64,000 nucleotides of DNA from Herbidospora daliensis (lineage in GTDB: Bacteria; Actinomycetota; Actinomycetes; Streptosporangiales; Streptosporangiaceae), in contig NZ_BBXF01000007.1 in the NCBI RefSeq assembly GCF_001570585.1, positions 1-64,000 on the forward strand, given 5' to 3'. This document shows, in pieces, positions 22,347 through 32,466 of the stretch; the stretch's first letter is position 1, and every line of letters begins with the position of its first letter. The notes beneath the pieces were generated by a model. It made no database searches. It saw only the letters and a program-made list of their open reading frames with translations, and had not been told where the DNA came from. The translations under genes and the position numbers were made by a program.

Positions 22347-23171
22347 TTATGTCCGGGCGGGCGAGAGACGTACATGCGCACCCGGCGGCAGGCCCAGCCG
22401 CTGGGCGGCGTCACCGGCGTTGACGGCCACGGCCACCAGGCCGGCCGAGTCGGTGAAGGCCACCAGATCGCCCGGCGGCACCGCCGCGAACGTGTCGCGG
22501 TAGGGCATGGCCAGCTGCCGGCGGCCGAGCCAGACGGCCAGGGTGTCGCCGTCGCGCACCCCGAGGAAGCCGAGGTCGGCGGCGGTGATGGAGAGCTGGA
22601 CGTTGCCGTGGCGGTCGACCGAGAGCACCTCGCCCTCGCACGCGCCGTCGCGCAGCCGGGAGGTCGGCTCGGGCAGCGTCACCAGCTCGCGCGGCGGGAT
22701 CGGGGTGCCCAGCCCGGCCACCTCGCGGCCCGCCACCACGTGGGCGGCGACCGGGCAGAAGATGTCACGCCCGTGGAAGGTCCGGGACACGGGCTTCAGC
22801 CAGACGTCCTCGTTGGTCAGCTCGTAGGCCGCGGTCGCGCCGCCGACGGCGTGCACCGCCCACGAGAGCACCCCGTTGTCGGGCCCCACGAACACCCGCC
22901 CGCCCGCCTCGATCGCGACCGCCCGGCGGGTGCTCGACCCCACCGACGGGTCGACCACCGCGATGTGCACTCCGCGGGGCAGGTAGGGGATCGTCTGGGC
23001 GAGGATCGCGGCCCCGCGCCGGACGTCGCCCGCAGGGACGAGATGGCCGACGTCGATGATCCGGGCTTCGGGGGCGATGCCGGCGATAACGCCGTGACAC
23101 GCGGCCACGAACCCGTCTTCGAGACCGTAGTCGGTCAGGAGAGTGATAACAGGCGTCACACCTGGTGACAT
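22347..23171 (-). CDS. SAM hydroxide adenosyltransferase (DUF62 family)
   Basis: A 274-aa member of the DUF62/fluorinase-chlorinase superfamily. It would split S-adenosylmethionine with water into adenosine and methionine. The signature TLLTDYGLEDGFVAACHGVI is at the N-terminus. The catalytic Asp-Arg-His set is seen in AVVDPSVGSSTRRAV and FHGRDIFCPVAAH. The halide-binding loop of true halogenases is not evident. ATG at 23169-23171 follows GGAGG at 7 nt and is preferred over an upstream in-frame start at 23207. It is divergent from the DUF3263 gene, with only 19 nt between start codons. Confidence 0.9.
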   Translation of the reverse strand: MSPGVTPVITLLTDYGLEDGFVAACHGVIAGIAPEARIIDVGHLVPAGDVRRGAAILAQTIPYLPRGVHIAVVDPSVGSSTRRAVAIEAGGRVFVGPDNGVLSWAVHAVGGATAAYELTNEDVWLKPVSRTFHGRDIFCPVAAHVVAGREVAGLGTPIPPRELVTLPEPTSRLRDGACEGEVLSVDRHGNVQLSITAADLGFLGVRDGDTLAVWLGRRQLAMPYRDTFAAVPPGDLVAFTDSAGLVAVAVNAGDAAQRLGLPPGAHVRLSPART

Positions 23172-23190
23172 TACGTCGCCTCCCCGGAAA

Positions 23191-23454
23191 ATGGCGACAG
23201 TTAGCATTGCCCGTGTGGACGGTCTCTCCCCTCAAGACAGGGACATCCTCGCGTTCGAGGGCGGCTGGTGGCGTCATCCGGGCGCGAAGGAGCAGGCGAT
23301 CAAGGACACCTTCGGCATGTCCACCACCCGCTACTACCAGGTGCTCGCCGGGCTGATCGACCGCCCCGAGGCGCTCGCCGCCGATCCGGCGCTGGTCAAC
23401 CGCCTGCGCGAGCGTCGCGACGCCCGGCGCCGGGGACGCGGCCGGTCAGCCTGA
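23191..23454 (+). CDS. DUF3263 family protein
   Basis: An 87-aa protein with the conserved core LSPQDRDILAFEGGWWRHPG followed by AKEQAIKDTFGMSTTRYYQVL, which looks like a helix-turn-helix. DUF3263 proteins are small, widespread in actinobacteria and of unknown role; DNA binding is inferred from the helical pattern. The tail is very Arg-rich (RLRERRDARRRGRGR). ATG at 23191 or GTG at 23215 could be the start; neither has a good ribosome site, so a leaderless mRNA is possible. Confidence 0.82.
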   Translation: MATVSIARVDGLSPQDRDILAFEGGWWRHPGAKEQAIKDTFGMSTTRYYQVLAGLIDRPEALAADPALVNRLRERRDARRRGRGRSA

Positions 23455-28271: not shown

Positions 28272-28410
28272 TGCTCATCCAGAGGGGTGGAGGGACCGGC
28301 CCTGCGAAGCCCCGGCAACCATTCCGACTCAACTCGCTACGTGGCGGGGCCGGTCGGAACAGGTGCCAATTCCGGTCTGTGATCAAGGCGGTCGCAGGCG
28401 AAGATGAGGG
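28272..28410 (+). ncRNA. SAM riboswitch (S-box, SAM-I type) upstream of thrC
   Basis: The leader shows the S-box core: GAGGGACCGGCCC near 28299, GAAGCCCCGGCAACC near 28307, and GGTGCCAATTCCGG near 28363. P1 forms from CTCATC (28274-28279) and GATGAG (28403-28408). The P1 3' strand runs straight into GAGGGAAAGG, the Shine-Dalgarno region of thrC, so SAM binding should hide the ribosome site; control is therefore likely translational. There is no intrinsic terminator between the aptamer and the ATG. Confidence 0.9.
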
Positions 28411-28424
28411 AAAGGCCTCGCTTC

Positions 28425-29669
28425 ATGGCGCTTCAGCACGATTTCGGACCCGCCGTCGCCCTCTCCTGCCGCGAGTGTGGCGCCCGTTACGACCTCGGTC
28501 CGATCTTCGCCTGTCAGGACTGTTTCGGGCCACTTGAGGTGGCGTACGACTTCGGAACCGTGACCCGCGAGGACATCGCCGCCGGTCCGGCCAACATCTG
28601 GCGTTACAAGGCCCTGCTGCCCGTCCCGGCGAACGTCGCCGACAAGCCCAACCTCCAGCCCGGCTGGACCAAGCTCCACCACGCCGGCAACCTCGGCGCC
28701 GAGCTCGGGCTGCGCGACCTCTACGTGAAGGACGACTCGGGCAACCCGACCCACTCGTTCAAGGACCGCGTCGTGTCGATCGCGGTCGAGGCGGCCCGCA
28801 ACTTCGGGTTCACCACGCTTTCCTGCTCCTCGACCGGCAACCTGGCCGGCGCCGTCGGCGCCGCCGCCGCGCGGGCCGGGCTCGACTCGTGCGTGTTCAT
28901 CCCGTCGAACCTCGAAGAGGCCAAGATCGTCGTCGCCAGCGTCTACGGCGGCAAGCTTGTGGGCATCGAGGGCTCCTACGACGAGGTCAACCGCTTCTGC
29001 TCCGAGCTCATCGGCGACCCGCTGGGCGAGAAGTGGGGCTTCGTCAACGTGAACCTGCGGCCCTACTACGCCGAGGGCTCCAAGACGCTGGCGTACGAGA
29101 TCGCCGAGCAGCTCGGGTGGCGCATCCCCGAGCAGATCGTCATCCCGATCGCCTCGGGCTCCCAGCTCACCAAGATCGACAAGGGCTTCAAGGAGCTCAT
29201 CGCGCTCGGGCTGGTGGAGGACACCCCCTACAAGATCTTCGGGGCGCAGGCCGAGGGCTGCTCGCCGGTGTCGGCGGCGTACAAGGCCGGGCACGACGTC
29301 GTGCGCCCGGTGAAGCCCGACACGATCGCCAAGTCGCTGGCCATCGGCAACCCGGCCGACGGGCCCTACGTGCTCGACATCGCCCGGCGGACCGGCGGGG
29401 CCGTCGAAGACGTCACCGACCCCGAGATCGTCGCCGCGATCCGCCTGCTGGCCCGGACCGAGGGCGTGTTCGCCGAGACCGCGGGCGGCGTGACGGTCGG
29501 CGTGCTGCGCAAGCTGACGGAGGCCGGGGTGATCGACCCCGACGCGACCACGGTGGTCCTCAACACCGGCGAGGGGCTCAAGACCCTCGACGCCGTCCAG
29601 TCGGAGGCCCGTCCGACGGCCGTCATCCGGCCGTCTCTCGACGCGTTCCGCACGGCTTTCGCCAACTAA
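28425..29669 (+). CDS. thrC: Threonine synthase with N-terminal zinc ribbon
   Basis: A 414-aa PLP enzyme of fold type II. Threonine synthase turns O-phosphohomoserine into threonine and phosphate. Cys15, Cys18, Cys30 and Cys33 form a CxxC-x11-CxxC zinc ribbon seen in some ThrC proteins. The PLP lysine is in NPTHSFKDRVVS. The phosphate-binding SSTGNLAGAVGAAAA loop and NTGEGLKTLDAV C-terminal motif are present. ATG at 28425 lies 9 nt after GGGAAAGG. SAM riboswitch control and the sulfur-carrier gene 28 nt downstream link it to the threonine/methionine branch at O-phosphohomoserine; a sulfhydrylase activity is a speculative alternative. Confidence 0.9.
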   Translation: MALQHDFGPAVALSCRECGARYDLGPIFACQDCFGPLEVAYDFGTVTREDIAAGPANIWRYKALLPVPANVADKPNLQPGWTKLHHAGNLGAELGLRDLYVKDDSGNPTHSFKDRVVSIAVEAARNFGFTTLSCSSTGNLAGAVGAAAARAGLDSCVFIPSNLEEAKIVVASVYGGKLVGIEGSYDEVNRFCSELIGDPLGEKWGFVNVNLRPYYAEGSKTLAYEIAEQLGWRIPEQIVIPIASGSQLTKIDKGFKELIALGLVEDTPYKIFGAQAEGCSPVSAAYKAGHDVVRPVKPDTIAKSLAIGNPADGPYVLDIARRTGGAVEDVTDPEIVAAIRLLARTEGVFAETAGGVTVGVLRKLTEAGVIDPDATTVVLNTGEGLKTLDAVQSEARPTAVIRPSLDAFRTAFAN

Positions 29670-29697
29670 TCTAACTGTTCGTCAAGGAGGGCCAACA

Positions 29698-29973
29698 ATG
29701 AGTGTTTCCGTGCGGATTCCGACGATTCTGCGGACGTACACCGGAGGCGCGGCCGAGGTGGCCGGCGAAGGGGCGACGCTGCGCGAGGTGTTCGAGAAAC
29801 TCGACGCCGACTACCCCGGCATCGGGGCCAGGATCCTCGACGAATCGGGCAAGGTGCGACGTTTTGTCAACGTCTACGTCGGAGAAGAGGACGTCCGATT
29901 CTCCGAAGGTTTGGACACTCCAACCCCGGCGGGCGTACAGATTTCGGTGATCCCGGCCGTAGCCGGAGGGTGA
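29698..29973 (+). CDS. MoaD/ThiS-family sulfur carrier protein (CysO-like)
   Basis: A 91-aa beta-grasp protein ending in the diglycine VAGG, the site that is adenylated and turned into a thiocarboxylate. The core has ATLREVFEKLDADYPGIGAR, RRFVNVYVGEEDVRF and ISVIPAVAGG. Family members donate sulfur for cysteine (CysO), homocysteine (HcyS), thiamine or molybdopterin. AAGGAGGG precedes the ATG, and the 28-nt gap after thrC suggests one mRNA under the SAM riboswitch. A role in methionine or cysteine sulfur supply is inferred; no activating MoeB/ThiF enzyme is in view. Confidence 0.9.
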   Translation: MSVSVRIPTILRTYTGGAAEVAGEGATLREVFEKLDADYPGIGARILDESGKVRRFVNVYVGEEDVRFSEGLDTPTPAGVQISVIPAVAGG

Positions 29974-30297: not shown

Positions 30298-30498
30298 GTG
30301 GCGCAGGGCACCGTCAAATGGTTTAACGCGGACAAGGGCTACGGCTTCATCGCGGTAGACGGTGGTAAGGACGTTTTCGTCCATTACTCGGCAATCATGA
30401 TGGACGGCTACAAGGCCCTCGAGCAGGGCCAGCGTGTGGAGTTCGACATCACGCAGGGACAGAAGGGCCCGCAGGCGGAGGCTGTCCGGACCGTCTGA
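30298..30498 (+). CDS. cspA: Cold-shock protein (CspA family)
   Basis: A 66-aa single cold-shock domain. It starts with GTG giving [20 protein letters not shown] (RNP1 is KGYGFI) and goes on to [12 protein letters not shown] (RNP2 is VFVHY). These bind single-stranded RNA and DNA and melt mRNA structure. AGAGGAG 8 nt upstream supports the GTG at 30298; a longer in-frame ORF from 30187 is noncoding leader. Length is standard for the family. Confidence 0.93.
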
Positions 30499-30590
30499 TC
30501 CCCTCAGACCGCGAACCTTTTCGGCCCCATCCGCGTGAGCGGCCGCGAACGGTTCGGCTGTAACCAACCCCACCACCCCAGCGACCTGGA

Positions 30591-30617
30591 ACCCGGCCCG
30601 CAGCCTGCGGGCCGGGT
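30591..30617 (+). terminator. Terminator of the cold-shock gene
   Basis: Complementary arms 30591-30603 and 30605-30617 form a GC-rich hairpin (about 11 bp with a 5-nt loop) followed by TTCTGCTG, about 90 nt after the stop codon. Confidence 0.75.
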
Positions 30618-30659
30618 TTCTGCTGCCGCCCCGCCTGACCTGCCCCTCTCGCTCTCCGG

Positions 30660-32466
<1,807 letters not shown>

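Follow-up and report, generated by a model that had tools for sequence, protein, structure and literature searches.

The window, by which we mean the whole 64,000 nt stretch of DNA that was analysed, comes from Herbidospora daliensis (assembly GCF_001570585.1, contig NZ_BBXF01000007.1, positions 1-64,000 of the forward strand). It contains a SAM-I riboswitch, a gene annotated as thrC and a gene for a small sulfur carrier; the two genes are referred to here as metM-type and metO-type. The features are as follows.

28272..28410, forward strand: SAM-I riboswitch aptamer, 5' of the metM-type gene (Rfam RF00162, SAM)
28403..28415, forward strand: 3' strand of P1 (28403-28410) merging into the ribosome site GAGGGAAAGG (28406-28415), from the Rfam alignment and the sequence
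28425..29669, forward strand: metM-type gene, annotated thrC, 414 aa (TIGR00260, 269 bits, and PALP; orthologues in 131 of 197 genomes of the class)
28467-28523, forward strand: zinc ribbon, a CxxC...CxxC signature at the N-terminus (pattern match in the sequence)
28761-28763, forward strand: codon of the PLP lysine, read off the SFKDR motif
29684..29691, forward strand: ribosome site AAGGAGGG of the carrier gene (from the sequence)
29698..29973, forward strand: metO-type sulfur carrier, 91 aa, with a Gly-Gly end (Pfam ThiS)

The riboswitch scores 72.1 bits (E 6.3e-15; gathering score 44.4) and matches the model over its full length (1-108 of 108), P1 included; in a search with stricter filters it is the sole RF00162 match in the H. 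daliensis genome at E<=0.001. The Rfam alignment pairs 28274-28279 with 28403-28408 to form P1, with one non-standard pair flagged, and GAGGGAAAGG, which precedes the metM-type start codon, is continuous with this helix. When the leader is folded alone, with no ligand, the 5' strand of P1 is unpaired in the minimum-energy structure, a ligand-free result that counts neither for nor against the switch. The open reading frame as listed (28404-29669) begins at an ATG within P1; the in-frame ATG at 28425, which lies 14 nt beyond P1 and has AAGG 9 nt upstream, is the likelier start. A gene for a SAM hydroxide adenosyltransferase (PF01887, PF20257) is found some 5 kb from the riboswitch, at 22347-23207 on the reverse strand.

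The metM-type product exceeds the 167.1-bit cut-off of the TIGR00260 thrC model and also matches Pfam PALP, but reaches only 147-169 bits against the solved threonine synthase chains 2d1f, 2zsj, 1uim and 6cgq. The carrier, whose gene has a ribosome site of its own, scores 54.4 bits against Pfam ThiS (cut-off 22.5), ends in IPAVAGG and matches chain 3dwg_C, which we take to be mycobacterial CysO, at 87 bits. These matches confirm the observation from which the analysis started, namely an earlier note's reading of a SAM riboswitch ahead of a ThrC-like gene and a ThiS/MoaD-type carrier. Downstream of metO lie a cold-shock gene and then groEL (30298-32466, forward strand). In S. coelicolor the gene order may be SCO4293-4296.

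Elsewhere in the H. daliensis genome (8.5 Mb, 18 contigs) a search located a canonical thrC on contig 6, directly followed by thrB. Its product is 38% identical to the window enzyme and scores 410-464 bits against the same four solved chains; an Rfam scan of the 10 kb around it gave no match. Two further ThrC-like paralogues of the PALP family lie on contigs 7 and 2 (L009, 4473-5564, and L008, 4491-5663, both on the reverse strand), L009 with a zinc-ribbon pattern. The genome also has a metY gene adjoining metX, a locus in which the Rfam scan found no match, and a separate carrier, 58% identical to that of the window, beside a cysteine synthase gene of the CysM type.

A sample of 197 genomes of the class, which are related among themselves, was searched with the window enzyme at E<=1e-60. 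Matches were obtained in 132: in 131 the enzyme is present as one copy at 59-100% identity, and the orthologues at 59-86% form one clear group; the next match, at 40% identity, was left out of the count, leaving 131 genomes with metM and 66 without. RF00162 occurs on the same strand directly upstream of metM in 131 of 131 (scan with stricter filters), an association beyond chance. Seven further RF00162 matches, one of them under the gathering score, lie away from metM, one each in G002, G019, G025, G043, G050, G089 and G119. Canonical ThrC was found in 192 of the 197 genomes at E<=1e-60, among them all 131 with metM; the five in which it was not found are all without metM. With a canonical thrC standing by thrB in H. 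daliensis, and ThrC in every metM genome, the possibility that the window gene is the cell's own threonine synthase was rejected.

The arrangement of aptamer and start codon is shared by nearly all orthologues. In 127 of the 131 the first in-frame start lies 6-18 nt past the 3' strand of P1 (median 13). An SD-like tetramer falls within that strand or no more than 2 nt beyond it in 112 orthologues; if the limit is set at 10 nt, the number rises to 127. SAM stabilises P1 in S-box riboswitches. Since the tetramer and the start sit at or just past P1, the helix would cover or crowd the ribosome site, and to judge from this layout SAM should block translation of metM in these 127 genomes; a terminator-type switch was set aside because the start codon is so near P1 (at most 18 nt in 127 of 131). 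The earlier note had placed the end of P1 in the ribosome site and SAM control at that site: in the window the 3' strand of P1 does run into GAGGGAAAGG, and comparison across the orthologues supports the proposed control. In four genomes of family f14 (G075, G102, G138 and G191) the aptamer instead stands 164-205 nt ahead of the first start. Their RF00162 matches are weak (44.7-49.1 bits; loci L174, L176, L177 and L179), and the riboswitch may work differently there.

Sequence motifs separate the two kinds of enzyme. A set of 234 MetM-type sequences (232 distinct) was compared with 12 canonical copies: GNAGN is absent from all 234 and present in 12 of 12 canonical copies, whereas SFKDR occurs in 234 of 234 MetM-type sequences. 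NSVNPxR was found in none of the 234, and its presence in 12 of 12 canonical copies is by construction, the motif having been used to pick them. On the MetM side the zinc ribbon (221 of 234), an R-P-Y-Y-type pattern (207) and an A-S-G-S-type pattern (180) are frequent; none is universal.

If the enzyme serves methionine rather than threonine supply, as the earlier note proposed, the distribution of other homocysteine routes is informative. MetX was called at >=300 bits; no genome attained the model's own 500-bit cut-off, and the scores are bimodal, the lowest counted being 313.6 bits and the next 168.6. On this basis MetX is present in 64 of 131 genomes with metM compared to 62 of 66 without, or absent in 67 and 4, respectively (Fisher p 3e-11, with no correction for phylogeny among related sampled genomes). 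The 67 MetX-less metM genomes are distributed over 17 of the 24 families that have metM, six of them possess a weaker MetX relative (90-164 bits), and over a FastTree phylogeny of the 131 enzymes, which is an enzyme tree and not a species tree, the state of MetX changes at least 31 times. MetA as an explanation of the MetX gaps was rejected: it occurs in 4 of the 197 genomes and in 0 of the 67. Among the MetX-less genomes without metM, G062 has MetA, G167 was scored as MetX-absent but has a metX fragment where a contig ends, and MetX and MetA are both absent from G007 and G009. The opposition of MetM and MetX is weaker outside the class: a phylum sample of 181 genomes gave 52 with MetM only, 47 with MetX only, 13 with both and 69 with neither. 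Among the metM genomes of the class, the frequent absence of MetX, the lack of MetA in the 67 without MetX and the presence of ThrC throughout support a role in methionine rather than threonine synthesis. The expectation that the pair would be found in genomes lacking metX and metY holds for about half of the genomes with metM; it fails for H. daliensis, which has both genes.

Hasebe and colleagues, in 2024, are said to have found that thiocarboxylated MetO is the sulfur donor. The enzyme itself, MetM of Streptomyces albulus, converts O-phosphohomoserine to homocysteine (Hasebe et al. 2024, per PMC12172450; the original paper on MetM–MetO is Hasebe, Adachi, Maruyama and Hamano 2024, Appl Environ Microbiol 90:e01247-24, cited here via PMC12172450). 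A SAM riboswitch is described upstream of metM in S. albulus, and metO is likened to a sulfur-carrier gene beside cyanobacterial thrC (PMC12172450). According to the same account, a Microcystis homologue with 51.6% identity to MetM and no riboswitch in vitro showed mainly threonine synthase activity, and no increase in methionine was seen in the cells concerned (PMC12172450), a result that urges caution for distant relatives. Among the openly licensed literature, in so far as its text was available, we found no other paper on the pair.

Taken together, what was computed here (the riboswitch, the gene pair, the layout of P1 and ribosome site, the separate canonical thrC–thrB and the complementarity with MetX) leads us to conclude, with a probability of about 0.9, that the locus is a MetM–MetO operon for homocysteine synthesis, controlled by a SAM-I riboswitch. 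It is very probably the same system as that published from Streptomyces: a ThrC-like enzyme, an adjacent carrier gene and an upstream SAM riboswitch in an actinomycete are shared, and comparison by description revealed no difference, save that H. daliensis also keeps metY–metX. The system is thus already known, and the interpretation in the earlier note is supported in part. The conversion of O-phosphohomoserine to homocysteine, with a carrier gene alongside, agrees with what is reported for Streptomyces metM and metO; the suggestion that this is an undescribed sulfur-assimilation route falls, because MetM–MetO is in print (PMC12172450). To that account, as far as its available text goes, we add that metM is strictly linked to the riboswitch, that its distribution complements that of MetX and MetA, how the ribosome site is placed relative to P1, and that some lineages have no carrier gene beside metM.

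MetM, a relative of threonine synthase, would draw O-phosphohomoserine from the threonine pathway and swap its phosphate for sulfur delivered by the C-terminal thiocarboxylate of MetO, yielding the homocysteine from which methionine is made. Abundant SAM would cause P1 to form, the metM ribosome site would be covered or crowded, and translation would stop. The H. daliensis copy of MetM is presumed to be active, and a MoeZ-type enzyme would charge the carrier. Given that metY and metX are present, the route is presumably not essential in H. daliensis, where the MetM–MetO pair is probably redundant. Several facts stand against the MetM–MetO reading: H. daliensis has metY and metX, 64 of the 131 metM genomes have MetX, six of the other 67 have a weaker MetX relative, G007 and G009 do without MetM, MetX and MetA alike, the contrast is looser in the 181 genomes outside the class, the TIGR00260 score is above its cut-off, and the cyanobacterial homologue is reported to be mainly a threonine synthase in vitro, with no gain in methionine (PMC12172450).

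A different possibility is that the enzyme makes homocysteine from free sulfide and that the adjacent carrier is a mere neighbor serving CysM or MoaE. The carrier is closely related to CysO, as its match to 3dwg_C and its identity to the CysM-linked protein attest, and in 27 of the 129 class genomes scored the enzyme occurs without an adjacent carrier. Yet the carrier is adjacent in the other 102, a carrier-like ORF accompanies 72 of the 80 top-ranking relatives (at least 590 were detected), and H. daliensis has a separate carrier–CysM pair; we consider this explanation improbable. Less probable still is a second, ordinary threonine synthase that SAM controls so as to keep the threonine and methionine branches balanced in their use of O-phosphohomoserine: the TIGR00260 score, the SFKDR motif in 234 of 234 relatives and the threonine synthase activity of the cyanobacterial homologue (PMC12172450) speak for it, but canonical ThrC is already there in all 131 genomes, the sign of the control is wrong (high SAM would turn off the synthesis of threonine, not of methionine), GNAGN is missing from all 234 relatives but from none of the 12 canonical copies, and neither the association with MetX absence nor the neighboring sulfur carrier is explained.

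The MetM–MetO pair may be set beside three other systems. Canonical threonine synthase (ThrC1) belongs to the same fold family and has the same PLP lysine motif; the window enzyme differs in that it has no GNAGN but does have a zinc ribbon, and its gene is preceded by a riboswitch and adjoins that of a carrier. In the CysO–CysM system of mycobacteria a homologous carrier likewise supplies a PLP enzyme, but there CysM makes cysteine, from O-phosphoserine, and H. daliensis has a carrier–CysM-type pair at another locus. The protein-thiocarboxylate methionine synthesis of Wolinella succinogenes also yields homocysteine with sulfur from a carrier protein. Its enzyme, in the work of Krishnamoorthy and Begley from 2011, is reportedly of the MetY type and uses O-acetylhomoserine; at the window a ThrC-type enzyme and O-phosphohomoserine would take their place.

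Adjacency of the carrier was scored in 129 of the 131 genomes, G147 and G156 having been dropped because the sequence ends too soon after metM. The 102 carrier genes lie at most 500 nt downstream of metM, and their products end in -AGG (70), -AGGC (29) or other short extensions (3); the carrier of the window ends in -GG. Residues after the Gly-Gly are also seen in MetO proteins beyond the class (GGSR, GGAF, GGR and others). A MetO with such a C-terminal extension would presumably need trimming by a protease before use.

The 27 genomes without an adjacent carrier belong to families f7, f9, f12, f14, f28 and f30. When G147 and G156 are added, the best-matching carrier of the whole genome adjoins a CysM-type gene in 29 of 29. 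Of twelve carrier-less loci that were displayed, three have the cold-shock gene immediately after metM, an arrangement that points to metO having dropped out of a conserved block. Eight of the 27 (G008, G052, G041, G014, G191, G138, G073 and G162; loci L096, L099, L110, L151, L174, L179, L181 and L182) also have neither strong MetX nor MetA but keep a riboswitch-linked MetM; G041, one of these eight, has a MetX relative at 159 bits. At E<=0.001 G008, G014, G041, G052 and G073 gave no carrier match besides the CysM-linked one, and a second carrier is present in G138 and G191. These lineages, which lie outside the window, are possibly new. For them, though not for the window, the odds seem to us about even that, where MetO is gone, CysO feeds both CysM, for cysteine, and MetM, for homocysteine; free sulfide is a possible donor to MetM in the same genomes.

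MetM relatives extend well beyond the class. A scan of named contigs with an alignment of nine sequences gave at least 590, of which the best 80 were kept; these 80 come, going by their record titles, from Actinomycetota, Cyanobacteria, Chloroflexi, Nitrospirota, Aquificota, archaea and others. Of the 80, 72 have a carrier-like ORF downstream at a distance of at most 1,200 nt, in several phyla, a count that includes one misread locus (L263, 4 residues) and one carrier match of odd length (L303). RF00162 precedes the gene in 32 of the 80, all from Actinomycetota or Chloroflexi. The set includes relatives in Acidithrix ferrooxidans and Aquificota-type records (L227, L250, L261, L264, L275 and L282); L227, L250 and L261 have an adjacent carrier, and none was found next to the gene in L264, L275 and L282. 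Aquifex aeolicus, Pyrolobus fumarii and Acidimicrobium ferrooxidans are listed as being without any known route to homocysteine (PMC5764234, in the text available).

The consequences are in part practical. The threonine synthase model scores MetM above its cut-off, so that MetM is readily mistaken for ThrC and methionine synthesis can seem incomplete in the 67 of 131 metM genomes without strong MetX; within the class, an upstream riboswitch together with the absence of GNAGN provides a simple means of telling MetM from ThrC. The relatives in Acidithrix and Aquificota are candidates for the missing homocysteine route in the groups of Acidimicrobium ferrooxidans and Aquifex aeolicus, the match being at group level. 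Should CysO indeed stand in for MetO, a single thiocarboxylate carrier would serve both sulfur amino acids in several actinomycete families, and MetM would be the only detected route to homocysteine in the eight genomes that have neither strong MetX nor MetA.
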